Below, in pieces: positions 2,647 to 34,567 of a DNA stretch of 53,581 nt. The notes beneath the pieces were generated by a model. That model searched no databases and was not told where the DNA came from. It saw only the letters and a program-made list of their open reading frames with translations. The stretch is from a virus, in IMG/VR virus record IMGVR_UViG_3300032223_002826, positions 1 through 53,581 of that record. One strand, 5' to 3'. The translations under genes and the position numbers were made by a program. How positions within the stretch are numbered: position 1 is the first letter of the stretch; each line of letters starts with the position of its first letter.

Positions 2647-3827
2647 CCGATGTCAAACACCCTTTGCACCTTGATCACTTGCTTTGATGTTGCAAGTGGA
2701 ATACTAATGCTACGAATACGATATTTATTTGAGATCTTTGAAAAATCAGATTCCTTGATGGTAACACAATCGTTTTCCATCAATGATGGATTGCAAATAG
2801 TTTCCATCTCGATATCTTCCGTTGTAAATCCAGCCTTGAGGAATAACTTGGTTGCAGCCTTCTTGGCGGCAGCGGTATCGGCGATTGCGGCACTTTGATA
2901 GACATTTGTTCGACGACCAATCTTCGCAATGCTTGTTGGAGATGCAGCATTGTTATCTTCAATCTCATAATACACATTGTCATTTGTTGTTCTGTTGGAG
3001 TTTGTTCCAATAACTACAACATGATTATAAAGATCTTGATCGTTATATGCTGCTCGAAGAGAAAGGAGTGTTCCATTTTGAGAAGAGTCAAATGTCCACA
3101 CAGAAGCAGCATCTGCAGGGTCACGGAAATCCTGAAGCGTCAATGTGCCATTGACATCAAAATAAATGTCAATGCCTTTGCTATCAGCAATAGTCTTAAA
3201 GAATCCACCGATTGGCTCATCTTGACGGAGACTATATGCAGTTCCAAGAGTTTTTACGCTAGTCGGCTGATCTGCCAAATCTGAAAGGTTCATCCTACTT
3301 GCTGGAATACCAGCAAGTAAAGCAAGCGTCTTTACGGTTGCCGCTACGCCTGCAGTTGAAGCAAAGTTGTAGATATTTCCAGTCGTAGCCTTAGATAGCG
3401 CCTTCCAGCCGTCGCTTCCAGAAAGAACAACTGTCGACATACCGCGATCAACGATAACATCTGCGCTATCAATATAGAATGTTCCGACCGTGCAGTATTC
3501 TACATGATCGCCAAAGTCAATCCCTCGTTCAATCCTAACCAATCGATTAACATAAAACAAGCCAGACCAACTTGTATTTGGTCCAAAGACACCATCCTTA
3601 TTGACAAGGGACATAGAGAATGTTCTTCGTGTTTCTCGAGTAACATCCACATCGACAGTGCCGTCAATAATATAGTTCTGAATAAATCGCTCTGAGGGGA
3701 CACCGCTATTGTAGAATGTTCCGCCTGCAACAGGGTTTAGATTTGTATCAAGAACCTGTGCGCGAACAACGCTTCTATGAACTGGCGAGATCAGGGCATT
3801 TTGAAATGCTTGACTTACAGGGAACAT
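2643..3827 (-). CDS. Minor tail / tail-hub protein (DUF5047-like)
   Basis: This encodes 394 aa starting at the ATG at 3827, which overlaps the upstream TGA by one base (TGATG). A longer frame to 3914 exists but would lie inside the upstream gene. The sequence begins FPVSQAF and HRSVVRAQVLD, followed by a TRETRRTFSMSLVNKDG segment. This arrangement is usual in phage tail-tip proteins that follow the tape measure, and I associate it with the DUF5047 type; a structural comparison with gp27-like hubs would decide. The likely role is a tail-tip ring linking tape measure and fibre. Its stop overlaps the fibre start (ATGA). The family name is from memory and moderately sure; the tail role is well supported by position. 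Confidence 0.7.
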   Translation of the reverse strand: MFPVSQAFQNALISPVHRSVVRAQVLDTNLNPVAGGTFYNSGVPSERFIQNYIIDGTVDVDVTRETRRTFSMSLVNKDGVFGPNTSWSGLFYVNRLVRIERGIDFGDHVEYCTVGTFYIDSADVIVDRGMSTVVLSGSDGWKALSKATTGNIYNFASTAGVAATVKTLALLAGIPASRMNLSDLADQPTSVKTLGTAYSLRQDEPIGGFFKTIADSKGIDIYFDVNGTLTLQDFRDPADAASVWTFDSSQNGTLLSLRAAYNDQDLYNHVVVIGTNSNRTTNDNVYYEIEDNNAASPTSIAKIGRRTNVYQSAAIADTAAAKKAATKLFLKAGFTTEDIEMETICNPSLMENDCVTIKESDFSKISNKYRIRSISIPLATSKQVIKVQRVFDIG

Positions 3828-7384: not shown

Positions 7385-10047
7385 CAGCCCACCGCCGCCA
7401 TCTGCTCAAGCGAGCGTACAAGCGCACCAGACTCAATCGCGCCAGCAATCTGCGAAGCAGTAAGCGCATCGACAGCGCCGTCAGGCGAGGTCACCTCAAC
7501 CTTGAGGCTGATTGTTCGCGTATTGTCCGATACCACGCTATATCCTCCGTTTGTTCCAAGCCCAATGTTTGCGGTCGTAGAAGCCGCAGCCTGAGCCAAA
7601 GCCATTGAGTAATCCTGCATTGCAATCAATGCGGAGTCAGTATTGGTAATACCGTTAGCAAGACCTTGAACAATGTTTTCGCCAATGCCAGCCATCAACT
7701 TGCTTGGGCTCTTGATACCAAGGAAATCCTTGATTGGTCCCGGAATCACATCCTTGATGAACTGAGCCACCTTATCGATAAGCCAGCCAATAAGACCAGT
7801 AATACCGTTCCAAAGACCTTGCACAATCGCAGCGCCAATGTCAATAAATGTTTTGATCCCGTCAGTCAGGAACCATTTCATCAGGTTTCCAACAAGTTTT
7901 CCAAGAGCATCAAGCAAGAATGGAATAGCCTTTGGAACCCATGAAATAAATGCATCAATAAAGTTCAGAACTACTTTTTGGATTGTCGGAATATTGTTAA
8001 ACACCCAAATAATAATCATTCCCAAGAACTTGACAAGATTTGCAAGCAGCATTGGGATAGCGTCAACAAGCCACCCAACAAACGCCAAAGCCCATTCCAT
8101 CAACTGATTGACGATGTCCCCAGCATGATCACCAAGCCATGATAGCATACTGCTAAGGAAGTTGCCAATAGCAAGAAGCATGGGAGGAACCGCTTCAAGA
8201 ATCCAGCGGAATAGAGCACTACCTAGTTGCGCAAGTGCTGGCACAAGGGCTGAAAGGAACTCAGCAACTTTTGCAAGAAGATATTGGAATGCACCTGCAA
8301 GGGTAGTCCCCATCTGCGGCATTGCCTGAATGATCCAAACAACGAATGCGCTACCCCACTCAAGGAGAGCATTTGTAATGGCTGGGATTGCGTTAGCAAT
8401 CTCAGTCAAAATGTTTCCAATGAATGTTACAACATCCATCAGCGCAACGCTTAAGGTTGATCCAGCCTTCTTACCAGTATCCATCATGACACTTGCAACG
8501 ATACCGATTGCAATCCCAACTACCGCAAGGGCTGCGGCGAAAGCAAGGGCTGCCGCAATAACTTCTGGCGCAAGCAGCAGGTTCATTACAAAGGTTAGAC
8601 CAGCGACAATCCCAAGAAGACTGCCGATGACTGTAAGTAAACCACCAATAGCAACGGTAATAATGCCAAGGGCTGCAGCAAACCGAACAAGTTGTGGGTT
8701 TTTCTTAATGATTTCGTTAAGAGCAACAACCCACTCTTCAACCTTTTTGACGATTGGCGTTAGGTACTCGGCAGCAACGCGACCGACGGTATTCTTTACC
8801 GCTTCCCATGCACGATTAAGACCTTCGGTAACACCCTTCCAACTGTCAGAGAGCATTGAGAAGTCTTTATCGAGAGACTTTGTTGCATCAGTGCTAACTC
8901 CGCCAAGTACATCGATAGCGCTTGCGTAATCCTTAACATCCTTCTTGCCGCCAGCAAACAGTTCCATCTGCTTATTAAGCAGAGGCATCATCGTTCGAGC
9001 GGCGTTCTGTGTAAATAGTTGATTGATGAGGCGCTGCTTTTCTTCGTCGTTTAGACCCTTCATTGAGTAAGCAAGGATCTTCACAGAGTTGCGCAAACCA
9101 ACAAACTTACCAGCAGGGAAGATCATCTTTGAGAATGTCTTCGTTCCACCATAGACGCTCTTGAACAGTTTATCCATTTCTGTTCGAGCCTGCTTAGATG
9201 GGTTTGCCAACTTATTGAATACCTGGGCAAGTCCGCGACCAGCAATACCGCCTCGGAGACCAAGGTTTCCAAGTGCGCCAAGTGCGGCGGCAACATCCTC
9301 AAATGGAATCTTTAGGTTATGCGCGGCAGTACCAGCGTACTTGAACGCTTCAATCACATTTGGGAACTCGAGTGCGGTAGCCTTAGTGTATCCGTAGAGG
9401 AGATTCGTTACATCTGAGACATTCTTGATACCCTGCTCTGTTCCGTCAAAGGTCATGCCAAACTGCTGCATAACTCCCAAGACGCCCTTAGTTGCCAACT
9501 CGTAGTCAGTCTGAGTAAGCGCCGCCGCCTTCATCACTGGGATGAAGCGTGCCATCAGTTTTTGAATATCATTCTGCTTTGTAATCGTTTCGCCAGTTGC
9601 AGAAGCCCAGAAGTAAAGACCTTGAGCAACATCTGTTGCTGGGAACAACTTGAGTTGAATGGCAGCCTTATTGATGGCATCTTGAAGGTCAATCGTTGTC
9701 GCGGAACCATCCTTAGCCTTGCCATTGAAGAAGTTCAACGCACCAGCGGCTCGATTGACCATAAACTCGAAATCGCCAAACTGCTTTAGTGAATCAGTAA
9801 TCGGGGCAAGCATCGATTGACCAGCAGACATAATCTGTCCACCAAGAATCTGCATACGGAATCCAGCACGGAACACACCGTCAAGACCCTTTTGAGCATC
9901 ATTGACGGCGCCTAGGAATCCACGGCTTGCTCCTTGGGCATTCTCAGCAGCCTTGGAGGTACCATCGATCTGCTTCTTGACATTGTCAAGAGCCTTGCTA
10001 TTCTGGACCGATACCATTACCTTTAGCGCGATTTCGGGATTTGCCAT
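7384..10047 (-). CDS. Tail tape measure protein
   Basis: This 887-aa protein lies directly after the frameshifting chaperones. The N-terminal 400 residues are alpha-helical with a phage minor-tail/tape-measure pattern (AAAALGALGNLGLRGGIAGRGL). Residues about 455-540 contain several hydrophobic segments, then repeated W-rich amphipathic helices (residues 560-740). The C-terminus has FLGIKSPSKLMAGIGENIVQGLANGI, a segment commonly found near the end of tape measures. The protein sets tail length and is ejected with DNA. At about 1.5 angstrom per residue the tail would be near 130 nm, consistent with a siphovirus. Confidence 0.93.
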   Translation of the reverse strand: MANPEIALKVMVSVQNSKALDNVKKQIDGTSKAAENAQGASRGFLGAVNDAQKGLDGVFRAGFRMQILGGQIMSAGQSMLAPITDSLKQFGDFEFMVNRAAGALNFFNGKAKDGSATTIDLQDAINKAAIQLKLFPATDVAQGLYFWASATGETITKQNDIQKLMARFIPVMKAAALTQTDYELATKGVLGVMQQFGMTFDGTEQGIKNVSDVTNLLYGYTKATALEFPNVIEAFKYAGTAAHNLKIPFEDVAAALGALGNLGLRGGIAGRGLAQVFNKLANPSKQARTEMDKLFKSVYGGTKTFSKMIFPAGKFVGLRNSVKILAYSMKGLNDEEKQRLINQLFTQNAARTMMPLLNKQMELFAGGKKDVKDYASAIDVLGGVSTDATKSLDKDFSMLSDSWKGVTEGLNRAWEAVKNTVGRVAAEYLTPIVKKVEEWVVALNEIIKKNPQLVRFAAALGIITVAIGGLLTVIGSLLGIVAGLTFVMNLLLAPEVIAAALAFAAALAVVGIAIGIVASVMMDTGKKAGSTLSVALMDVVTFIGNILTEIANAIPAITNALLEWGSAFVVWIIQAMPQMGTTLAGAFQYLLAKVAEFLSALVPALAQLGSALFRWILEAVPPMLLAIGNFLSSMLSWLGDHAGDIVNQLMEWALAFVGWLVDAIPMLLANLVKFLGMIIIWVFNNIPTIQKVVLNFIDAFISWVPKAIPFLLDALGKLVGNLMKWFLTDGIKTFIDIGAAIVQGLWNGITGLIGWLIDKVAQFIKDVIPGPIKDFLGIKSPSKLMAGIGENIVQGLANGITNTDSALIAMQDYSMALAQAAASTTANIGLGTNGGYSVVSDNTRTISLKVEVTSPDGAVDALTASQIAGAIESGALVRSLEQMAAVG

Positions 10048-16105: not shown

Positions 16106-18433
16106 CTACTTGCGGTGAGCAAGAGCAAGACCCAGTCGCAAACGCTCAGAAGGCGAAATGCTGGCAAGATTTGCCATCACATCGTCCTGAGTCGTCTCAC
16201 CACGCTCAATGAGAGGCGGGGCTGAAACGGCAGGGCTATTTTCCAGTTCCACAATGCGAGCGGATGCCTCAGCAAGAGCACGCTTGAGTTCCTCAGTTTC
16301 GTCGACAACGGTTTCCTTCTCAGGTTCGATGGCGACTTCCTCAAGGTTAGACTCATCGGCGTTAGAGACCGACTTCGCAGTTTCATCTTCAACCTCTTCG
16401 CTAAGGAGACCAAACTCCTTTAGCGCAGCGGTCATTTCTTCGTGGAGGGCAAGGAGACGAGAGGCGGTCTCGGCGCTAATCTTGCGCCCAACCTTCTCTA
16501 CATCAGCCTCAACCTCAACTTCTGGGACAACTACCTCGGCACCGCACTCACCGCATTCGCAGGGAGTTTCATGCTCTGGATTGCTATCCTTTTCAACTTC
16601 GCCCTCAGAAACGACAGCCTCCTCAAGAGGTGCCTCTGCTGGCTCAGATGTTTCAATAACAGGAGCCTCAGGCTCGGCGACAACAGCCTCAGCCTCAGGA
16701 GCAACAACGGTCTCAACCTCTTCGGCTGGAACATCGTCGATCGCCTTGTGCAGAACCGTTCCGAAGGAAGGGGTCCACGCAGGTCGAGTGGTGTTGCTAA
16801 TCTCGTTCAAGGTCACATCGTAATAGGTACGAATGTTCTTGCCAAGATCTGGCATGAACTCATCCTTATACGATCGGACTGCTCCAGCAACGGACATGCC
16901 AAACTGCTTGCCCTTCTGGAGTTGAGCGAACAAATACATTGCTGCAGGATTCGCCTCATCAAGTTTGACCTCGACACCGAGGTGCATCTTATCGGTAATC
17001 CATGCACGGACGATCGAGCCAAGATCACGAAGAACGCCATCTTGAGCATGCGCATCGCGATATGGAAGAGGATTGGTCAATGCATTCTGGCTGATCTGCT
17101 CAGCGAATCGCTGAATAGCATCAGGAGCCATACGCTCATCAGTTGCATCAATCTCTGGACCAGAAGCCTCGCCAAGGATGTAGAATCCGTCAGCGCGCTG
17201 CTCAGCCTTCGAGATAGGGAAAGTAATCTTCCAAGGAGCATTGACGCTCTTAGCAATGCTTTTCATAGACATATCCTCTGGAGTGTTGACATTAGGATCT
17301 TCAACATCCTCCACAACTTCTACGCCAGAGGCGCGAAGTTGCCAAGTCCACTTCTGAAGCATTTCTGCTCGACCAGCAAGGAAGTTTGCAATGCCCTGCT
17401 CATTAGCAGCGCTTGCAACATTGAACATGCGGGTGGTCTCGGCGAGGAGAACATTCAATCGATTGAGGAGGTCCTCAGTCATAAGGTCAGGGTCATCCTG
17501 AACGCCAGTCTCATCTGCGGAAACAAGCCCAGCATCACCAATAGATCGAAGGGCAACAAAGTCTCCAAGACGGAATGGAGCGTCAACAGATAACTTCAAT
17601 AGGCTCTCGGCAATAGGGTCAACTGATTCATAAAGGTCGCTATAGATCTCGCCGAACAGTTCATGATACTGCGAGAAAAGTTCGCCTTTTGCATTCCAGT
17701 GATAGCCATGAGCAGTAAAGTACACGGTAACGGTATCGGACAAAAGTGCCTTGAGCCCATCAACAAGTTCAGGGGTCGCAGTCTTCTGCACTGATTCGCT
17801 CTTTGCGAGATCAGATTCGCTAATAATCCACAACTTACAAACCGCCTCTCCGGGGATTACCCCAGCAACGATCTCGCACTGACCGCCGTTTGCTGCGTCC
17901 CAAAAGACACAGTTCTTGCACATCAGTCCGGCATCCTTGAAGGGGTTCTTATCAGGCGGCGCATAGTGAGCACCGTTAGCCCCCTCTGTTTGGTCAAACT
18001 TACCGAACTCCGATGCAATCTGCTTGTAAGCAGCATACATCGCTTTCTGGCGCTCGTTCAGCATTACGCCCTCACCAAGATCTTTCTTGGTTGAGCCGCT
18101 GGCGACACGCTCAGCCCACGCTCGAGCACGGGCATTATCTGTCTTTGAGCCACCGCCCCAAAGGGCTGCAGCAACAACTCCGGGAGATGGATAGTCAGGA
18201 TGCCCACGCTTTGCAGCAGGAGCACTCATGTCAGGCTCATGGCGAGCAAACCATGCTGCCATACGCTTTGCCTTCTCTCGGCTGATTTTCTTGGACTGAA
18301 CAATGCGCTTCGCTTCAGCAACAGTCTTAGGCTTTAGCCCACTACCAGCCTTGCCCTGCGCATACCAGTTCAAACCATCATTCATGTTGGTAACAAGCCA
18401 ATCGGCTGCGGAAACGAGATCAGATTCAGCCAT
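16106..18433 (-). CDS. Prohead protease-scaffold polyprotein with HiPIP-like and Dps-like domains
   Basis: This 775-aa protein lies between portal and capsid. (1) Residues 1-115 hold a helical module with KAKRMAAWFARHEPD and YPSPGVVAAALWGGG, common at the start of phage head proteins. (2) C172, C175, C186 and C199 (CKNCVFW to VCKLWII) have the spacing of a HiPIP-type Fe-S domain. (3) Residues about 223-370 resemble Dps/ferritin: YHWNAKGELF, QYHELF and SVDPIAES align with the Dps ferroxidase motifs, keeping both His, the later Asp and the Glu, while the position of Dps D67 is Gly. (4) Residues about 400-565 form an XkdF-like prohead protease (YILGEASGPEIDATDERM, FGMSVAGAV). (5) An acidic linker carries CECGEC, and the C-terminus is scaffold-like (VMANLASISPSERLRLG). 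The fusion of (2) and (3) to (4) and (5) is unusual. Domains (2) and (3) rest on motif recall, without a search. Confidence 0.85.
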   Translation of the reverse strand: MAESDLVSAADWLVTNMNDGLNWYAQGKAGSGLKPKTVAEAKRIVQSKKISREKAKRMAAWFARHEPDMSAPAAKRGHPDYPSPGVVAAALWGGGSKTDNARARAWAERVASGSTKKDLGEGVMLNERQKAMYAAYKQIASEFGKFDQTEGANGAHYAPPDKNPFKDAGLMCKNCVFWDAANGGQCEIVAGVIPGEAVCKLWIISESDLAKSESVQKTATPELVDGLKALLSDTVTVYFTAHGYHWNAKGELFSQYHELFGEIYSDLYESVDPIAESLLKLSVDAPFRLGDFVALRSIGDAGLVSADETGVQDDPDLMTEDLLNRLNVLLAETTRMFNVASAANEQGIANFLAGRAEMLQKWTWQLRASGVEVVEDVEDPNVNTPEDMSMKSIAKSVNAPWKITFPISKAEQRADGFYILGEASGPEIDATDERMAPDAIQRFAEQISQNALTNPLPYRDAHAQDGVLRDLGSIVRAWITDKMHLGVEVKLDEANPAAMYLFAQLQKGKQFGMSVAGAVRSYKDEFMPDLGKNIRTYYDVTLNEISNTTRPAWTPSFGTVLHKAIDDVPAEEVETVVAPEAEAVVAEPEAPVIETSEPAEAPLEEAVVSEGEVEKDSNPEHETPCECGECGAEVVVPEVEVEADVEKVGRKISAETASRLLALHEEMTAALKEFGLLSEEVEDETAKSVSNADESNLEEVAIEPEKETVVDETEELKRALAEASARIVELENSPAVSAPPLIERGETTQDDVMANLASISPSERLRLGLALAHRK

Positions 18434-26689: not shown

Positions 26690-27000
26690 TAATGCCTTGT
26701 ACGCTCTATACCCCTATACCAGTATAGTATATATAATATATATAACATAGTATAGGTATTAGTATGTATAACGCGTATAGCGCTTATATCCTTTATCTCC
26801 TTATCCCTACCTATCACCCTTATCCTCTTATTGCTATTAGAAGGGCTCATATGCTTAGTAGTACTTAGACACTATAAGCCAATAAACGCCTCTCCTAGGG
26901 CTTCCTAGGGGCTTCTGAGGGCATTATAACCCTAGGTCGTAAATACAAAAATAATACAAAAATAATCAATATCCCCTCGACTTTTAAAACGACATGTATT
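26690..27000. other. AT-rich intergenic tract, possible DNA-unwinding region
   Basis: This non-coding stretch upstream of nrdJ is dominated by TATA steps (around 26710-26765, runs such as TATATAATATATATAAC) and later by three CCTAGG palindromes (26893-26936). It borders the iteron-like array at 27289. No convincing promoter for nrdJ could be fixed, although its transcript must start here. The DNA-unwinding role is inferred from composition and position. Confidence 0.45.
26919..26936. promoter_or_regulatory. GGCATTATAA-CCCTAGG motif, copy 1
   Basis: GGCATTATAACCCTAGG recurs with one inserted G at 46618-46635, immediately upstream of the SSB-like gene. Both copies lie in divergent intergenic regions. 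The shared motif may be an operator or promoter core. Confidence 0.4.
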
Positions 27001-27288
27001 TTGTTTAGTCACCAGCGCACTAATAAATGGGGTGGTTTGGAGCCCCCCAAAGGGGGGCTAACCAAGCACGAAGGGATCACGGCTTACCTACGCCGACCCT
27101 TACAACGCGTGCAGGAGCGCGCGCTAAATACCATGACGCGCACGAAGGCAGGTGCGCGCGGAGCGAGCACGGTAGTTTTACGCGTGCGGTAATCGCGCAG
27201 GAAACTACGCGCCTAGGTAGGCGCCTCAAGGTATCCCGAAGGGATACAAACCGCGCGAGCGTAGCGCCTAGGGGTGCATGCGGGAATA

Positions 27289-27443
27289 CCTTGTCGCGCG
27301 CTCAAGGCGTGCGACTTACCTTGTCGCGCACGCGAGGGTACGCGTGGTTTACCTCGTCGCGGGTAGGGGCGCATGGGGTTCCTTGTCGCGCGCGCAGGCA
27401 TGGGGTTTCCTCGTCGCGGGTAGGGGCGCGTTTCCTTGTCGCG
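27289..27443 (+). repeat. Iteron-like array of six CCTYGTCGCG repeats
   Basis: Direct copies of CCT(T/C)GTCGCG begin at 27289, 27319, 27352, 27381, 27409 and 27434, with spacings of 30, 33, 29, 28 and 25 bases. The flanks are also similar (GGGGTTTCC before, CGCGxAGG after). Regular spacing near three helical turns suggests a protein-binding array such as a replication origin or partition/regulatory site. Variable, short units and irregular spacers rule out a CRISPR array. Confidence 0.6.
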
Positions 27444-28170
27444 GGCGTAGGGGTAGGCGCCTTGCGCGCGGTCAAGGATAAATAACACGCGCACGGAAAA
27501 CGGCGCCCGTTGTCGCGCAGGGTTTTTACGCCTAGGCGCGCAGGGATTCTTTGACGCGGGCGTAGGCGCCTAGGCACGCGCGAAAAGGAAATCAGGCGGG
27601 CGTGGTTCATTGACGCGGGCGCGTACACCCCCGCAGGCGCGGCAAGGAAAAACACGCGCGCAGGGTTCTTTGACGCGCGTATGGGCGTAGGCGCGCGCGG
27701 AGAATAGTAAACACGCGCGTAGGCGCCCAGCGCGCGGAAATGGATAAATAACACGCGTACATGCGCACGCGTAGAAAACCCTGCGCGGTTGATCTGCGCG
27801 GGGTTTTACGCCTAGGCGCGCGGCAAGGAAGTTGCCCGCACGGGATTCCTTGGCACGCGTGCGGGTATGCGCCTATGCGCGGCAAGGAAAACATGCGCCC
27901 GTGCGGTTCATTGACGCGCCCACGGGCATGCACGCGCACGCGTAGAAGGAAAACCGCAGGCGCAGGAAAACCGCGCAGGATTGATCTGCGCGTGGTTTTT
28001 ACACGCAGGCGCGTGATTTTCATTTCTGCGCGTGCAGGGGTAGGCATGCGCGCGCGTCAAGGAAAACCTGCGGGCGTGTATGCCTAGGGGCGCGTCAATG
28101 AATCCTGCAGGGGCATGGAGACCGCAGGGAGCAACGCCCGCAGTCTCCGTGCGCCGCGCGAAGGCAAAAC
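27444..28170. repeat. Non-coding region with dispersed CAAGGAA/TTCCTTG and CGCG-rich repeats
   Basis: Degenerate copies of TTC(C/A/T)TTG(A/T/G)CGCG occur on the plus strand at about 27547, 27606, 27666 and 27906. Inverted copies (GCGCGGCAAGGAA, GCGCGTCAAGGAA) occur near 27638, 27818, 27877 and 28055. Small frames here are Arg/Ala/Pro-rich by composition, overlap on both strands and lack ribosome sites, so I read no gene. Many CGCGCG steps and short hairpins are present. Confidence 0.6.
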
Positions 28171-28216
28171 AACCCCCTAAAGGGGGTTGACAAACCAAAA
28201 TCCGCCGTGGGATGCT
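28171..28216 (+). promoter_or_regulatory. Promoter with inverted repeat touching the -35 box
   Basis: A perfect 8-bp inverted repeat (AACCCCCT, loop AA, AGGGGGTT; 28171-28188) runs directly into TTGACA (28187-28192). The -10 candidate GATGCT at 28211-28216 is weak. The repeat could be an operator or an upstream terminator. It would drive the 90-aa gene at 28277. Confidence 0.5.
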
Positions 28217-28276
28217 TGCAAAAGCAACGCCGATGACGGCGGAGCACAAGTCCCCCGAAGGGGGAAGGAGGGCAAC

Positions 28277-28549
28277 ATGACCGAAGCGAAGATGAGCACT
28301 AAGACCCTACGGGTCTTTTTCGGCTCGGCAAGCGATGACGGCGACCTGAACGAGACCGAAGGTCTCGCGGAGCGGCTTGCCGCTCGGATCGGCTTCTCCG
28401 AAGCCTATGAGACCTCTTGGGTTGATGGATCTCCGAAGGAGATCATGAGCAATGCTCGGTATCGTGAAGCCATCGCCGTGCTCTTTACTGGCGATGGCTT
28501 CGGCTTGTGCTTGATCCCCGAAGCCGTCGTCATGGCTCGCCTAGCCTGA
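28277..28549 (+). CDS. Hypothetical 90-aa early protein
   Basis: The start is ATG 28277 after GGAGGGCAAC; an upstream in-frame ATG at 28187 lies in the promoter and is rejected. The protein begins MTEAKMSTKTLRVFFGSASDDGD and has ETSWVDGSPKEIMSNARYREAIAVLFTGDGFG. I do not recognise it. The coding DNA holds at least four perfect inverted repeats (for example arms AAGACCC, GAGACC, GAGCGGC, GATCTCC). A strong terminator follows. It stands alone within the non-coding region and may be the first early protein. Confidence 0.7.
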   Translation: MTEAKMSTKTLRVFFGSASDDGDLNETEGLAERLAARIGFSEAYETSWVDGSPKEIMSNARYREAIAVLFTGDGFGLCLIPEAVVMARLA

Positions 28550-28566
28550 TCCCCTTCGGGGATCCG

Positions 28567-28601
28567 CCCCCTGATCCCTTCGGGGATCAGGGGGTTTTTT
28601 T
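28567..28601 (+). terminator. Rho-independent terminator
   Basis: A perfect 12-bp stem (arm CCCCCTGATCCC, 28567-28578 with 28583-28594) closes a TTCG tetraloop and is followed by seven T (28595-28601). A second 7-bp hairpin lies directly before it at 28548-28564. This ends the 90-aa gene transcript. Confidence 0.92.
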
Positions 28602-29603
28602 ATTCCCTTCGGGAATAAAACACGCGCGTATACGCGCCTCAAGGATAGTTATCCTTGAGGCGCCCGCAGGCACATATACGCACGCGCCTCAAGGAATATA
28701 TATTCCTTGCCGCGTAGCGCGGGCGCTTTTCATTGCCGCGCAGCGGGCGCGCTTTTCATTGTCGCGGGCGCATACACGCGCCCCTGCACGCGTAAAAAAG
28801 AACACCCGTGCTTAGGCGGATCTGAAGACTTTCACTTTAGTGAAAGTCTTCTTTACGCACCTGACTGACTACCAGCGACGCGGCTAGGCTAAACCTTCGC
28901 GCGGAGATCAAACGCGCGAGGTTTTTACGCGTGTTTTTCCTTGTCGCGCGCAGAGGCACCGAAGCAGGCGCGAAGACTGAAATCCGCACCCTAAAAACGG
29001 CGCGGGACTAAGTCGCACAGGGTTTTGTGAAGCCATCCGAAGCGCTGCCAATGCCGACGGCGTGGTTTTGGATTCCCCTTAGGGGAATCTCCGAAGCGGT
29101 CGGCAAGGGCTGCTAAAACCCCCTGAAAGGGGGTTTTCCGACACGCTAAGCGGTGTTTGGGCTTTGGGTAGGGTTCTCCCCTTCGGGGAGAAAAAACCGC
29201 GTTTATGCTCGCTTTTCATTGTCGCGCGCTCAACGCGCCCGCGCACGCGGATAAATGAACCGCGCTCCAAAAACAGCGCGCAGTAAACGGCGCCCAGTTT
29301 TTGAGTAGCCACGCGGAAATCAACTAACGCGCGCAGGTGTATACGCGCGCACGCGCGTAAAAGGAAATAACGCGCGCTACTTAGACGCGCCAGCGAACAC
29401 ACCTAGCGACGCGCCCGTGCACATATATACGCATGTACGCGCGCGCCTAACGCGCGAGCGCAGGGCTACGGCTCGTAAAACTCCGCAGAGTTTTACAGCG
29501 CGCAGGGCTGAAGAGAGCAAAATCCTACGGATTTTGCGACTTCGCAACGCAGGCACGCGCGCGAGTATCCGACCGCTTTTTCTTTGCGAAGAAAAAGCGA
29601 CTT

Positions 29604-29701
29604 CATCGCTATACCCTAAAGGGTATAGCGATGTCATCCCTTTACTCCAAGAGGAGTAAAGGGATGTTTTCTATTCTCGTGGCAATCGTAGATTGCCACG
29701 A
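29604..29701. repeat. Cluster of three long perfect hairpins
   Basis: Three inverted repeats stand almost end to end. Arms CATCGCTATACCC (29604-29616 with 29621-29633) are 13 bp, loop TAAA. Arms CATCCCTTTACTCC (29635-29648 with 29653-29666) are 14 bp, loop AAGA, then TTTT. Arms TCGTGGCAATC (29677-29687 with 29691-29701) are 11 bp, loop GTA. They could terminate transcription in both directions or form a processed structured RNA. Confidence 0.7.
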
Positions 29702-29906
29702 TAATAGGGATTTGCGGCGATTTGAGGCTGCCGACCCCCCTTTTTGGGCTGCCATGGCTCCCCCTTTTCCAAACGAGCCTATCCCTCGTTCTTTTACTTC
29801 GGTGTAAACACCTCGTAAAATAACTTCGGTCTAGGCTCGTTTGCGTGCGCGCTCGGGGGCGCAAAAGTTTTGCGCGCCTCATGATGCGCAAGCGCGTAGC
29901 GCGTAA

Positions 29907-29977
29907 GTGTGTGCGCGTGTACATGTGCGCGTATACGCGTATACATGTGCGCGTATATGTGTACATATGCGCGCGTG
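29907..29977. repeat. 71-nt perfect alternating purine-pyrimidine tract
   Basis: All 71 bases alternate purine and pyrimidine without a break (GTGTGTGCGCGTGTAC and so on). Such DNA, especially with GC/CG and GT/CA steps, is the classic substrate for Z-DNA under negative supercoiling. It lies in the non-coding region before the first multi-gene early transcript. Confidence 0.85.
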
Positions 29978-30136
29978 GAAAGGCTGAATATTTTTCGTAG
30001 AAAAATATTTTATATGTGCATAATGCGAAGGGACGCCATGATGTGAGCAGCGTTCAGAATCTCTTTTTTCAGTAAGAAAAAGAGATTTTACTACGCGCGT
30101 ATTTATACGCATGCGACGCATACGCGCATCACACGG

Positions 30137-30196
30137 CGTGTCAATACTAAATACCTTCGGTATTTACCCTTACTTCGTAAGGGTCGTATTGACACG
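30137..30196 (+). promoter_or_regulatory. 60-nt three-way-junction element, copy 1
   Basis: The plan is: closing stem of 11 bp (CGTGTCAATAC, 30137-30147, with GTATTGACACG, 30186-30196), one T, hairpin with 7-bp arm AAATACC and loop TTC, one A, hairpin with 7-bp arm CCCTTAC and loop TTC, then TC. An element with identical dimensions and junction bases but almost wholly different hairpin stems lies at 31652-31711. TTGACA (30189-30194) is inside the 3' closing strand, so folding as DNA cruciform would hide the -35 box. Confidence 0.75.
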
Positions 30197-30217
30197 CGAG
30201 GAAGGCTCTGGGATTGT
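30189..30217 (+). promoter_or_regulatory. Candidate promoter for 30266-31085 genes
   Basis: TTGACA at 30189-30194 is followed after 17 bases by GATTGT (30212-30217). The -35 is perfect and the -10 is weak. It is located about 50 bases upstream of the gene at 30266. Confidence 0.4.
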
Positions 30218-30265
30218 TGTTGAGGAAGCGGCGCCAAATCGCCGCATCGGATCGGAGGTCTCGCA

Positions 30266-30643
30266 ATGGCTAGGACAGCACGAACACTCGTCAAGCAGCA
30301 CACTCTGGTTGCAACCACATATGAGGCAGCGGTTCTCGCCGCAACTATTGCCCCCTACGGGGCAAATGCGATTGCCCTTGACACTGATGGGGTAATCGCC
30401 GCAGTAGTCTATAAGACTACTTGCGGTTGGCAGATTGAGCGTTCCGCCGATTGCCCTTGGGCAATCCGTGGTCTTGTGATGCAGTTTACTGCATCACATA
30501 TGCTCATGAAGGATGCGATTCGCCGCCTTCGCCAGATTCAGCGCCTCGCCGTTGCAGATCCTAATGAGGATCTGCATGAGTACGAGGAGGATGAGACCAA
30601 TACCTATAAGGTATTGTGCAACAAGTGCAACCAGTATGCCTGA
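30266..30643 (+). CDS. Hypothetical 125-aa early protein
   Basis: The ATG follows GGAGGTCTCGCA. The protein is mixed alpha/beta (HTLVATTYEAAVLAATIAPYG, IRRLRQIQRLAVADPNEDLHEYEEDE) with a final CNKCNQYA knuckle. No recognised family. The coding sequence holds six perfect inverted repeats: 30348-30365, 30414-30430, 30449-30466, 30476-30497, 30554-30575 and 30598-30616. A seventh (30640-30658) straddles the stop. A 10-bp GC stem with a TTCG loop precedes the next ribosome site. Confidence 0.75.
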   Translation: MARTARTLVKQHTLVATTYEAAVLAATIAPYGANAIALDTDGVIAAVVYKTTCGWQIERSADCPWAIRGLVMQFTASHMLMKDAIRRLRQIQRLAVADPNEDLHEYEEDETNTYKVLCNKCNQYA

Positions 30644-30707
30644 TCCCTTTGGGATCAGATACAATCGCCCCTCCCCTTCGGGGGAGGGGCAAGCAGGAGG
30701 TGTAAAC

Positions 30708-31085
30708 ATGGCGGAATCCCTTCGGGATTATGTTCTTGCAAACGGCGGTGCAACTATTCTCCTTGAGAATAGTTCGCCATACACTGCAGAAAACGGCTAC
30801 GCCGTTGGCGTTGCGACTGGCACATACTTTCGGGTACCAGTTGCTACAGCAACTGCAGAGCAACTTGGAGCGCTTGTGAATAATATCAAGGATATTATTC
30901 ATCTAGGCGGCACGATTCTTGACGAAGCCAACGCAGTTGGCTTTTGGGTGAATGATGGATGGATCCACATTGACCCAGTGCAGATCGTCCCTTCGGGACG
31001 AGACGCCATCAACCTAGGGTATGAGCGAAAGCAGGAAGCGATCTATGACTTCCGTAGGAAGTCAGAAATCTTCTTGCCCCGCTAA
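30708..31085 (+). CDS. Hypothetical 125-aa early protein
   Basis: The ATG at 30708 follows AGGAGGTGTAAAC. An upstream in-frame start lies inside the previous gene and is rejected. The protein reads MAESLRDYVLANGGATILLENSSPY with AEQLGALVNNIKDIIHLGGTILDEANAVGFW; it resembles no family I know. Eight inverted repeats interrupt 378 bases, including 10-bp arms AACTATTCTC (30752-30774) and GAATAATATC (30878-30900). It is probably co-transcribed with the gene at 30266. Confidence 0.75.
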   Translation: MAESLRDYVLANGGATILLENSSPYTAENGYAVGVATGTYFRVPVATATAEQLGALVNNIKDIIHLGGTILDEANAVGFWVNDGWIHIDPVQIVPSGRDAINLGYERKQEAIYDFRRKSEIFLPR

Positions 31086-31105
31086 TCCCAAAGGGATTAC
31101 CAAAG

Positions 31106-31129
31106 CCCCGCCCTCTTCGGAGGGCGGGG
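31106..31129 (+). terminator. 10-bp GC stem with TTCG loop
   Basis: Arms CCCCGCCCTC (31106-31115) and the complement (31120-31129) close TTCG. There is no T-run, so termination would be Rho-assisted or the stem may protect the mRNA 3' end. A smaller hairpin, arms TAATCCC, overlaps the stop codon just upstream. Confidence 0.6.
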
Positions 31130-31196
31130 TGAGCACATATATGTAGAGGTGTGTGCATACACCTAGCCGTATGCACACACTCCTGCAGATATGCAG

Positions 31197-31257
31197 GCGC
31201 ACACACATACACGCGTGCGGGCGCGCACGCACGCACACACGCGTACATACGCGCGTA
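31197..31257. repeat. Alternating purine-pyrimidine tract (31197-31219 and 31221-31257)
   Basis: Two perfect alternations of 23 and 37 bases are broken by one G-G step. The composition is CG/CA/TA steps with Z-DNA potential. It occupies the gap between two early transcripts, like the tracts at 29907 and 33413. Confidence 0.8.
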
Positions 31258-31353
31258 AAAACCTCTCCAAAAAAACAAAGTTTTTTTAGTAGGGGCAGTG
31301 CTAGTAGCGACGCGGATCGGAAGCAATCCCTAAAGGGATTGGGAAGGAGAAAC

Positions 31354-31644
31354 ATGCAGAAAAACGATCACAGTCAGGTAGGTTATACGCAGGAGCAAAT
31401 CAATAAGTTCATGGAAATGCATACCCTTGTCGTAGACAAGGAAGCGATGCAGGCTCTTCGTGATGAAGTCAAATGGCTTCGTGAGGTGATCGCCAATCTC
31501 CGTAAGGAGATTGATAACCTCCAAGCAGAGAAGTTGCCTATGGCAACTTGTGCCGCTTGCCACGAAGACTTTCCACATAACAAAGTTATGTGGGTCGCCA
31601 ATCGCTACGAATGCGAATGGTGCTACGAGCGCTTGTCCATATGA
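31354..31644 (+). CDS. Small coiled-coil zinc-finger protein
   Basis: The ATG at 31354 follows GGAAGGAGAAAC. It encodes 96 aa. Residues 10-60 form a coiled coil (EAMQALRDEVKWLREVIANLRKEIDNLQ). The C-terminus is a treble-clef or ribbon-like zinc site with CAACHEDF and CEWCYERL. Such coiled-coil plus zinc-knuckle proteins can bind nucleic acid or host proteins; no specific family. Perfect inverted repeats lie at 31494-31513 (GTAA loop) and three other places in the gene. Confidence 0.8.
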   Translation: MQKNDHSQVGYTQEQINKFMEMHTLVVDKEAMQALRDEVKWLREVIANLRKEIDNLQAEKLPMATCAACHEDFPHNKVMWVANRYECEWCYERLSI

Positions 31645-31651
31645 GCGCACA

Positions 31652-31711
31652 CTTGTCAAGACTAAAACCCTACGGGTTTTACCTATACGAAGTATAGGTC
31701 GTCTTGACAAG
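31652..31711 (+). promoter_or_regulatory. 60-nt three-way-junction element, copy 2
   Basis: The closing stem is CTTGTCAAGAC (31652-31662) with GTCTTGACAAG (31701-31711). Then come T, hairpin arm AAAACCC (loop TAC), A, hairpin arm CCTATAC (loop GAA) and TC. Every length and the T, A and TC junction bases equal those of copy 1 at 30137, while most stem bases differ in compensating pairs. It begins seven bases after the stop of the coiled-coil gene and embeds TTGACA (31704-31709). Confidence 0.75.
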
Positions 31712-31732
31712 CGGGAAGGGTTGCCGTACCTT
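31704..31732 (+). promoter_or_regulatory. Promoter for the 31803-33354 genes
   Basis: TTGACA (31704-31709), 17 bases, then TACCTT (31727-31732). The first gene of the group starts 70 bases downstream. Confidence 0.5.
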
Positions 31733-31802
31733 GGAAATCGTCAAGCCGCCGACGGCAAACGGCGGAGATCGGTAAGTGCCCTAAAGGGCAAGGAGGTCGC
31801 TC

Positions 31803-32297
31803 ATGTCGCTCAACTGGAATGTTGCAAAGGTAGCAGACGGAGTCTGCTGGGAGCCTAAGTTTGACAGCAAGGGCAACCCCGTCATCGGAGATGACGGCAA
31901 GCAGGTTGAGACTATGCGTTGGGAAACGGATGCGCTCATCTGGCAGACGATGATAATCGGGCTCAACAACATTACCGAAGGTAATGTGGATGAATGGGTC
32001 TACCGATTGTCGCTTCTCGCGGTGTTGGACAACGGAGTTGGGACTCGCTTTGTTGATGACAAATGGGTTCGGACTTATCTGACGGAGTCAGATGTTCGCC
32101 GCCACATTGGGCTCTATACGAATGCGACGCAGCAAACTCGTAAAGAGTTTGAGAAGCGATTCCTTGAGTGGGTTCACGAAAGGGGTATCGGCACCCTTCG
32201 GGATGCCGAAGAGGATCAGGCAGACTTTGAGCAGCGCCACACCTATGTCGTAGACAAGGGATGGTACTCGGTTGAGAAGTTGGCGGAAGCAATCTAG
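31803..32297 (+). CDS. Hypothetical 164-aa early protein
   Basis: The ATG follows CAAGGAGGTCGCTC. The sequence has DALIWQTMIIGLNNITEGNVDEWVYRLSLLAVLDNGVGTRF and RKEFEKRFLEWVHERGIGTLRD, a mostly helical acidic protein. I do not recognise it. Perfect inverted repeats include arms GCAGAC, CGTCATC, ACATTACC, ATCTGAC and CAAACTC, spaced across the frame. It is first in a four-gene transcript. Confidence 0.8.
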   Translation: MSLNWNVAKVADGVCWEPKFDSKGNPVIGDDGKQVETMRWETDALIWQTMIIGLNNITEGNVDEWVYRLSLLAVLDNGVGTRFVDDKWVRTYLTESDVRRHIGLYTNATQQTRKEFEKRFLEWVHERGIGTLRDAEEDQADFEQRHTYVVDKGWYSVEKLAEAI

Positions 32298-32327
32298 CAA
32301 TGCCCCTTCGGGGCAAGGAGGTACAAC

Positions 32328-32882
32328 ATGACGGACACTGAAGTTCTACACCCTGAAGGGTGTAAGGTAGACGGCGCAACTTGTATCTCATGCAATGAGC
32401 ATGAGTGCGACACCTCTAGCACGGATTGGCAGTATGCCAATCGTCAAGAAGGTTGGCTCTGCTACTCCTGCTATTGCTCCGACACTGAACATGGTTCAGT
32501 GATCACGACGATTGAGCAGGACGGGACGGAGTCCCGTACGCTTATCGGGGATTATGTGGCGATGGACGCGGAGTTTGGCGACTTCGTGAATAGCGAGAAT
32601 GTGGTTCGCGAATACCATCGTACCGATGGTTGGCGAGGACACTACTGCACAACCCTAAAGGGTTGGACGGAAGTTGAGGATGGCGTTGCCCTTGCTGGCA
32701 TGCCGACTCCTGCTACTGATCTTGCAAGCAAGATCAAGGATGCACAAGAGGAGGGTTTCTTGCCTTGCAAGATTGCCATCATCTCCGATCCTACGAGCAA
32801 TGTGTTCTCGGTTGGCGTGTCCTTCTTCGTAGAAGAAGGCAATGAGGAAGTGTTTACCCAATGGGTAAAGGAGGTTGCATGA
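32328..32882 (+). CDS. Hypothetical 184-aa early protein with Cys motifs
   Basis: The ATG follows GGCAAGGAGGTACAAC, itself preceded by a hairpin (32301-32315). The N-terminal half carries CISCNEHEC and CYSCYC (zinc-binding candidates). The C-terminal half is alpha/beta (KIAIISDPTSNVFSVGVSFFVEEGNEEVF). No family recognised. This is the densest gene for inverted repeats: ten in 555 bases, at 32347-32364, 32387-32405, 32424-32442, 32483-32501, 32521-32537, 32614-32630, 32650-32665, 32718-32735, 32821-32839 and 32853-32869. Confidence 0.8.
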   Translation: MTDTEVLHPEGCKVDGATCISCNEHECDTSSTDWQYANRQEGWLCYSCYCSDTEHGSVITTIEQDGTESRTLIGDYVAMDAEFGDFVNSENVVREYHRTDGWRGHYCTTLKGWTEVEDGVALAGMPTPATDLASKIKDAQEEGFLPCKIAIISDPTSNVFSVGVSFFVEEGNEEVFTQWVKEVA

Positions 32883-33094
32883 GCAAGGTTTTGTGCCATC
32901 GTTGCAATAAAACGATCCGTAAGGATCGTGTCTTCATGCTGTTGTTCACCCCATTCCATAAGGAATGTGCCATGATCTTCGGCGGGATGATGATTATGGC
33001 AACTCCCGATCCTATAGATCGGGATATTCTTACCCGTATTGTGTACGGCGACAAAGTCGCCGACAACATCAAAAACAAGGAGGTGCAAGCATGA
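32879..33094 (+). CDS. Small zinc-knuckle protein
   Basis: The ATG overlaps the upstream TGA (ATGA). It encodes 71 aa: MSKVLCHRCNKTIRKDRVFM, then HKECAMIFGG, a C-x2-C plus H-x2-C arrangement fitting a zinc knuckle. Four perfect inverted repeats are present, including 32912-32929 (GTAA loop). Function unknown. Confidence 0.75.
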   Translation: MSKVLCHRCNKTIRKDRVFMLLFTPFHKECAMIFGGMMIMATPDPIDRDILTRIVYGDKVADNIKNKEVQA

Positions 33095-33354
33095 ATCGGA
33101 TCGCTATCATCATTCTGATGATTATGGCTGCTTTTGTTGGGTTCTTTTTGCCGCCATCAGCCGCCGTTGAGACGCTTCTCAACGGCGAACACTTCCGACA
33201 AAACTACCCTGATGGTAGTTTTATGGTTGGTGTTATCTACTACGACGAAGTCGTAGGGGATCGTTGCGCAATGGGAACAATGCACACCGCTGATGGCAAG
33301 GTTTACAACCTTGACAAGTGGTGCGGCGATGACCTACTCCCCGTTGGGGAGTAG
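33091..33354 (+). CDS. Secreted or membrane-anchored small protein
   Basis: The start overlaps the upstream stop (ATGA). It encodes 87 aa with an N-terminal hydrophobic segment (IAIIILMIMAAFVGFFL, residues 4-20) followed by PPSAAVETL, so it is either a signal peptide or a membrane anchor. The outer part has two Cys (DRCAMGTMH, DKWCGDD) that could form a disulphide. Inverted repeats lie at 33163-33186, 33201-33221, 33240-33256, 33297-33313 and 33334-33354, the last covering the stop. Possibly superinfection exclusion, by analogy only. Confidence 0.75.
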   Translation: MNRIAIIILMIMAAFVGFFLPPSAAVETLLNGEHFRQNYPDGSFMVGVIYYDEVVGDRCAMGTMHTADGKVYNLDKWCGDDLLPVGE

Positions 33355-33412
33355 CGCTTTGCTCACACCCCTGCCCTCTATGTGAGGGTAGGAGCGTGTG
33401 CAATCGCACATG

Positions 33413-33489: not shown

Positions 33490-33561
33490 GGAAAAAGTTG
33501 GAAAACCAACTAGCATGACGGCATAGGTTAGCGACGCGTAAGAAAAGCGACGCAGCCCAAT

Positions 33562-33605
33562 CCCCCTAAAGGGGGTTGACAACCAGTTTTTTGAGATGCT
33601 ATCAT
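33562..33605 (+). promoter_or_regulatory. Strong early promoter with abutting inverted repeat
   Basis: The inverted repeat CCCCCT-AA-AGGGGG (33562-33575) runs directly into TTGACA (33576-33581). After 18 bases comes TATCAT (33600-33605), close to consensus. It matches the arrangement at 28171 and 34524. It drives the gene at 33652. Confidence 0.8.
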
Positions 33606-34514: not shown

Positions 34515-34523
34515 AAACCAATC

Positions 34524-34567
34524 CCCCACAAGGGGGGTTGACAAGCCGAAAAACGGCAGGTTATCAT
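34524..34567 (+). promoter_or_regulatory. Strong early promoter with abutting inverted repeat
   Basis: An inverted repeat CCCCC-ACAA-GGGGGG leads directly into TTGACA (34538-34543). After 18 bases TATCAT (34562-34567) follows. Transcription would start near 34575. Confidence 0.8.

Follow-up and report, generated by a model that had tools for sequence, protein, structure and literature searches.

The window analyzed here, a record of 53,581 bases from an uncultivated phage, carries siphophage genes for a tape measure protein, a portal, a terminase, a reductase, a DnaB-like helicase, an ArdC-like protein and a XerC/D-like recombinase. Two elements in this record, E1 and E2, fold into three-way junctions (table 1). 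Folding of both strands bore out the 60-nt plan of the original prediction (an 11-bp closing stem, two 7-bp hairpins with 3-nt loops and the linkers T, A, and TC) as well as its perfect pairing, with 25 out of 25 bp formed in each element. As predicted, the 3′ strand of both closing stems contains a TTGACA hexamer (30189–30194 in E1 and 31704–31709 in E2). The junctions are real and far beyond chance, with z scores against dinucleotide shuffles of −7.5 to −7.7 as RNA and −7.3 to −9.5 as DNA, and 0 out of 200 shuffles folded as well. The A between the inner hairpins has two alternative partners, the T preceding hairpin 1 and the T following hairpin 2, and either inner hairpin may reach 8 bp.

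Table 1. Positions of the junctions, promoter-associated hairpins, and early reading frames within the window.
Feature	Position	Strand	Description
Hairpin-saturated zone	28150–33400		66 perfect hairpins (stem at least 7 bp, loop 3–4 nt) in the best 5 kb; thinner tail to ~37300
Simple hairpin CAACCCCC-taaa-GGGGGTTG	28170–28192	+	3′ arm overlaps TTGACA (28187); same in L121
E1 three-way junction	30137–30196	+	Closing stem 11 bp (12 with flanking G-C); triloop hairpins 30149–30165 and 30167–30183
Putative E1 promoter	30189–30217	+	TTGACA, 17 nt, GATTGT (weak −10); missed by consensus scan
Early ORF after E1	30266–30643	+	125 aa; six hairpins (stem at least 7 bp) inside; stop codon covered by hairpin arm
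Early ORF (probable gene)	30708–31085	+	125 aa; weak homologues in actinobacterial phages; contains six hairpins; stop codon covered by hairpin arm
E2 three-way junction	31652–31711	+	Plan as E1; triloop hairpins 31664–31680 and 31682–31698
Putative E2 promoter	31704–31732	+	TTGACA, 17 nt, TACCTT (weak −10); missed by consensus scan
Early ORF after E2	31803–32297	+	164 aa; no family found
Imperfect hairpin	33556–33605	+	Runs into TTGACA (33576), 18 nt, TATCAT
Hairpin with one T-G pair	34519–34567	+	Runs into TTGACA (34538), 18 nt, TATCAT

A total of 6 out of 25 pairs differ between E1 and E2, all of them altered on both sides and none broken. Two of the 11 closing pairs differ, in agreement with the original prediction, but the inner hairpins, which had been described as almost fully different, are mostly alike and differ in only two out of seven pairs each. 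The double changes were matched by 12 out of 500 column shuffles of this alignment of only two rows, and disappear (0 double changes) if the register is slid by one to three columns. The inner loops are TTC/TAC and TTC/GAA, the latter pair being an exact reverse complement, and all four are C-G closed loops of the form TNC or GNA, as in N4-type triloops.

Both elements had been placed upstream of early operons. The gene layout fits this placement, with the reading frames at 30266–30643 and 31803–32297 next in line, but the two putative promoters have weak −10 boxes and neither passes a consensus scan. The same scan found no excess of promoter-like sites between 26.5 and 38.5 kb (9 found, 10.3 expected from shuffles). 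The reading frame 30708–31085 is probably a true gene, judging from its weak homologues; neither it nor 31803–32297 has protein relatives in viral contigs, where the helicase matches two loci (L119 and L120) and the reductase 18 loci.

With closing-stem patterns, neither IMG/VR nor a GTDB set of one genome for each species yielded a further junction copy; records very near the window may be absent from these collections. All pattern-matched stretches (117 and 10 from two scans of viral contigs and four from genome contigs) were refolded individually and rejected as none gave a junction. A covariance model built from E1 and E2 had no match at E ≤ 1 in 13 relative records, which shows little given that the search had no positive control, and within the window it recovered E1, E2, their reverse strands and chance-level matches only. 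Searching by structure through 221 loci plus the window (2.36 Mb, with double counting of overlapping loci) gave no other junction whose closing stem reaches 9 bp and whose inner stems reach 6 bp; three weak A+T-rich junctions (closing 8 bp, inner 5–6 bp) are present in L016, L025, and L085. The absence of further instances in relatives, which the original prediction had itself named as a ground for doubt, speaks partly against it, although the sole close relative (G001, reductase 99% identical) is a contig that ends at the equivalent of ~29.63 kb in the window, before the position of E1.

Several known element types were compared with the junctions. Rfam gave 0 matches at the gathering score across the window. 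Integron attC sites are folded single-strand sites of ~60 nt or more with RYYYAAC/GTTRRRY boxes. The fold size is similar and the window encodes a tyrosine recombinase of the XerC/D type, but the closing stem of E1 and E2 lacks the attC boxes, and the recombinase scores 59 bits against an integron-integrase cut-off of 265. The mobile-element and integron readings were dropped because E1 and E2 show no evident target-site duplication and have dissimilar flanks save for a few bases at the right. Alternatively, the inverted TGTCAA/TTGACA arms could be two regulator sites over the −35 box to which the inner hairpins are incidental: TGTCAANAC is inverted over the −35 box in both E1 and E2, and some repressor sites of Cluster A mycobacteriophages lie within an early promoter (PMC6550527). 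This paired operator is very unlikely. The Cluster A sites are asymmetric single sites, perfectly paired inner hairpins would be superfluous for binding sites alone, and no repressor was recognized among the ORFs scanned. TGTCAA or TTGACA occurs at 50 sites in the window, among which there is no other inverted pair, and identity with Cluster A (L5-type) stoperators or operators was rejected because the inverted pair is found at two places only and does not recur genome-wide.

A Zone Saturated with Short Perfect Hairpins

The zone that surrounds the junctions was not mentioned in the original prediction and is more surprising than the junctions themselves. Among 127 background loci the best 5 kb contains a maximum of 8 (median 1) hairpins of the kind counted in table 1, and the maximum is 7 in 119 other loci. 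Hairpins with stems of at least 7 bp number 63 with 3-nt loops and 48 with 4-nt loops in the window, compared with 5.0 and 3.4 in shuffles. The stems are perfect, with few internal mismatches, and the stem lengths of the triloop hairpins are bimodal (3 bp 63, 4 bp 17, 5 bp 3, 6 bp 6, 7 bp 17, and 8 bp 18). The hairpins occur both within and between genes; 53 are located inside 19 gene intervals with loops in every codon phase, and the even distribution over phases (12, 13, and 10 triloops) does not discriminate between the readings discussed below. The covariation between E1 and E2 is genuine, yet typical of the whole hairpin zone.

Functional genes densely filled with perfect hairpins are considered rare, and the open-access literature searched gave no report of a comparable phage zone. 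A scan for AACCCCC-loop-GGGGGTTGACA yielded 11 loci and a wider scan 40 loci, of which eight contain at least 10 hairpins per 5 kb (8/40 vs. 0/127 background loci); as zone loci were picked via the promoter hairpin, these counts give no share of phages that have such zones. Six of the eight dense loci form one family (L173, L179, L185, L190, L195, and L202) and the others are L125 (G003) and L176. Overall, at least five zone lineages were distinguished (window/L121, G002/G004, the L190 family, L125, and L176), judged to be unlike by GC content and absent protein matches in a comparison that covered window/L121, G002/G004, and L125. In records read whole, the zone is a local feature. Related records (G014, G005, and G006) are without a zone, hairpins are sparse across the complete records of L133, L119, and L120, and likewise in four named phages with a gene resembling one of G004's (4, 3, 2, and 3 hairpins in the best 5 kb of the stretches read, 50.0 out of 52.7, 40 out of 76, 30 out of 55, and 34.8 out of 54.8 kb). 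The zone is therefore no trait of whole phage groups. A hairpin of the form AACCCC(C)-loop-(G)GGGGTT with its 3′ arm running into a TTGACA box was found in many unlike phage contigs, even in those without a dense zone, and is perhaps an insulator-promoter fusion.

Two further observations concern the left part of the region. About 2 kb (27000–28160 and 28620–29500) is mostly non-coding and G+C-rich with repeated CGCGC/CCTTGTCGCG-like words, and L121 differs here by inserted repeat units. A small gene (28277–28549) is swapped for a distant homologue in L121 (3292–3567, protein 35% identical) between near-identical flanks; the swap is enclosed by one hairpin that precedes the ribosome-binding site and another at the stop codon, as though gene cassettes were delimited by hairpins.

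Loop Type and Strand Bias

Within the zone and its tail (28.15–37.3 kb) 30 out of 51 triloops are of the GNA/TNC type compared with 8 out of 127 in the 127 background loci (Fisher 2e-13), and those that are also C-G closed number 25 out of 51 and 1 out of 127, respectively. According to PMC4496689, the early-promoter hairpins of phage N4 require a GNA-type loop and a C-G closing pair to extrude, which they do at physiological supercoiling. The GNA/TNC class is evenly distributed between the strands (19:16 in the window and 41:28 over the five lineages, stems of at least 6 bp). By comparison, GNRA/UNCG tetraloops are biased towards the sense strand over the five lineages (17 vs. 4, p = 0.007), with hairpins that contain a single internal wobble leaning the same way (15 vs. 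6, p = 0.08). Based on strand evenness and the N4-type loop and closing pair on the one hand and the sense bias on the other, the triloop class looks DNA-like and the tetraloop class partly RNA-like.

The sense bias is the first of several observations that would fit a role in RNA, in which zone transcripts are hairpin chains that protect or organize early mRNA, and E1 and E2 are 3′-end or operon-boundary structures whose overlap with the next −35 box is fortuitous. In 6 out of 13 gene starts examined the ribosome-binding site is immediately preceded by the end of a hairpin, four stop codons lie within hairpin arms, and E2 starts 8 nt past the stop codon of the ORF at 31354–31644. Terminator-like sites are in excess (35 found, 11.4 expected), and hairpin spacing between 30266 and 33360 is more regular than chance (P = 0.003), an effect that is absent over 28250–33360 (P = 0.48). 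Against this reading, the triloops have no strand bias and the coding strand of the zones folds no better as RNA than the antisense strand (difference 0.16 ± 0.46 kcal/mol in the window). Between G002 and G004, arm changes to G-U are equally frequent on the two strands. E1 itself may not be transcribed, as it is preceded by ~1.5 kb without convincing genes and by a terminator-like hairpin at 28566. In a separate comparison with intrinsic terminators, neither E1 nor E2 was among the 35 terminator-like sites, their 3′ flanks (CGAGGAAGG and CGGGAAGGG) differing from the stem followed by a T run of an intrinsic terminator. An RNA boundary structure ranks second among the explanations and is, on balance, somewhat doubtful.

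Retention and Template Switching among Relatives

Among the 22 hairpins shared between the window and L121, 20 are identical in their loop and two have loops that are reverse complements (in one case a single-base difference); two arm differences are uncompensated. G002 and G004 differ at 18% of sites. In four gene pairs of these two phages 26 hairpins were retained in place compared with 5.4 expected (maximum 12 in 1000 runs) from a neutral simulation that does not include template switching; one of the four genes is singly non-significant (P = 0.057), and a fifth gene whose proteins are 50% identical was excluded. In CDS1 of the L190/L185 pair all 16 out of 16 hairpins were retained (4.3 expected, maximum 11), with 4 changes in 220 arm positions and 35 in 337 positions elsewhere. 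The arms in cds0 of G004/G002 change as fast as the remainder of the gene (47/287 vs. 49/348), so that pairing is kept rather than sequence. Overall, the in-gene hairpins of these two phage pairs persist well beyond neutral expectation. The retention test applies to class members in other phages, E1 and E2 having no orthologues, and was relied on instead of constraint at third codon positions. The latter is evident in six pooled gene pairs (65/306 changes in arms vs. 265/841 elsewhere, p = 0.0007; no difference at positions 1 and 2) but was set aside as partly an artefact of hairpin picking, with the neutral simulation for L190/L185 giving an arm/other ratio of 0.72.

Template switching homogenizes arms and inverts spacers (PMC8604942), and a single event can yield perfect stems (PMC8794818); loop inversion is its mark, and it can produce compensated arms without selection (PMC8604942 and PMC8794818). 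Four distinct loop inversions between relatives were identified in the hairpin class, which show that DNA template switching also acts in the zone. The junctions could thus be the extreme outcome, without a function of their own, of a process that repeatedly makes and perfects short inverted repeats in this region. The perfect stems with few mismatches, the loops in all codon phases, the reverse-complementary loop pair and the 6 out of 6 compensated changes between E1 and E2 agree with such an origin, and the coding palindromes of nematomorph mitochondria have been attributed to a process of this kind (PMC6649704). Those palindromes are likewise numerous perfect inverted repeats in functional genes with few imperfect ones, but their mean arm is 43 bp and their mean spacing 37 bp, whereas the zone hairpins have 7–8-bp arms, 3–4-nt loops and a GNA/TNC bias and are confined to the phage early zone. 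The compensated arms and inverted loops also resemble the template-switch hairpins of PMC8794818 and PMC8604942, from which the zone differs by a higher density, locality and in-gene retention than the accessible parts of these papers describe. Retention at the level expected without selection was not observed (26 vs. 5.4 and 16 vs. 4.3, both for class members and against a null model without template switching), and the L190/L185 pattern resembles purifying selection as conversion alone would admit paired changes. A pure by-product, which ranks third and is unlikely, leaves unexplained why the zone is restricted to early genes, why stem lengths have a sharp 7–8-bp mode, and why hairpins are located at −35 boxes, ribosome-binding sites and stop codons. 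Selection seems to be needed besides template switching and, given the four inversions and the excess retention, both seem to act on the zone hairpins.

These results bear on the claim that covariation within one genome is a strong sign of a functional fold. Maintenance of the fold is supported, mainly via the hairpin class that is retained in two other phage pairs, but the covariation between E1 and E2 is by itself no strong sign of function because compensated short hairpins occur throughout the region and template switching can make compensated arms without selection. For the same reason, paired changes within one genome alone do not prove a functional RNA. The recurrence of the zone in unlike phages and its above-neutral retention demand a cause, be it DNA extrusion, mRNA armour against host nucleases or unusual replication, and functional RNA could be told apart from template switching by synonymous recoding within this compact system.

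A Proposed DNA Element at Early Promoters

The explanation ranked first, with a probability of about 0.38, is that E1 and E2 are composite members of the zone and act as a DNA element at an early promoter, the −35 box being held in an extrudable stem. They would be two copies of one promoter-proximal module and the most elaborate members of an early minihairpin zone whose hairpins most likely act as DNA. Stems of 7–8 bp with C-GNA-G triloops are of the type that extrudes from negatively supercoiled duplex at physiological density. The two inner hairpins may nucleate extrusion of a Y-shaped arm with the −35 hexamer of the early promoter in its stem, such that the promoter would be accessible as long as the incoming DNA is relaxed, and be shut or come under regulation after supercoiling of the genome. 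The paired changes that selection would then keep probably originate from template switching during replication. The data show the fold, its two copies, the position of the −35 box, the loop class, the zone and the in-gene retention in two other phage pairs; we infer extrusion of E1 and E2 in vivo, their promoter activity and the gating step. Gating by supercoiling is suggested by analogy with N4, one of whose hairpins, placed between −35 and −10, shut off an E. coli promoter, an effect relieved by gyrase inhibition (PMC4496689).

The DNA element is supported by the strands of E1 and E2 folding equally well as DNA, by the strand-even C-G-closed GNA/TNC triloops, by the missing folding advantage of the sense strand, by the simple hairpins that run into TTGACA at 28187, 33576, and 34538, and by the in-gene retention in G004/G002 and L190/L185. 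It is weakened by the weak −10 boxes, the lack of a promoter-site excess and of another junction copy in the collections scanned, by the sense bias of the tetraloops (17:4), and by the in-gene hairpins, which cannot all be promoter gates. The likeness to the promoter hairpins of the N4 virion RNA polymerase comprises the 7-bp-class stem, the 3-nt loop with 5′ G and 3′ A, the C-G closing pair and the location at early promoters, with extrusion from supercoiled DNA shown for N4 (PMC4496689). Unlike in N4, a host-type promoter here has its −35 box in the stem, a third stem carries the two hairpins and dozens more hairpins are located in genes. The longest open frame in the window (966 aa, in a record that may be incomplete) is too short for a giant N4-like virion RNA polymerase, which also weakens the DNA element. 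The broader proposition, that the early zones of unrelated phages are strings of extrudable C-GNA-G minihairpins under structural selection in which E1 and E2 would be a compound supercoil-sensitive Y-gate for promoters of the host RNA polymerase, is rather unlikely.

Outside the early zone, inverted TGTCAATG/CATTGACA and TCTTGAC-att-GTCAAGA repeats are located in reading frames at 3139–3174 and 9975–9991. In the head region, a gene on the minus strand (16106–18433) encodes a 775-aa protein that combines, in one chain, a match to a ferritin-like (Dps-type) domain with a weak match to a prohead protease family.
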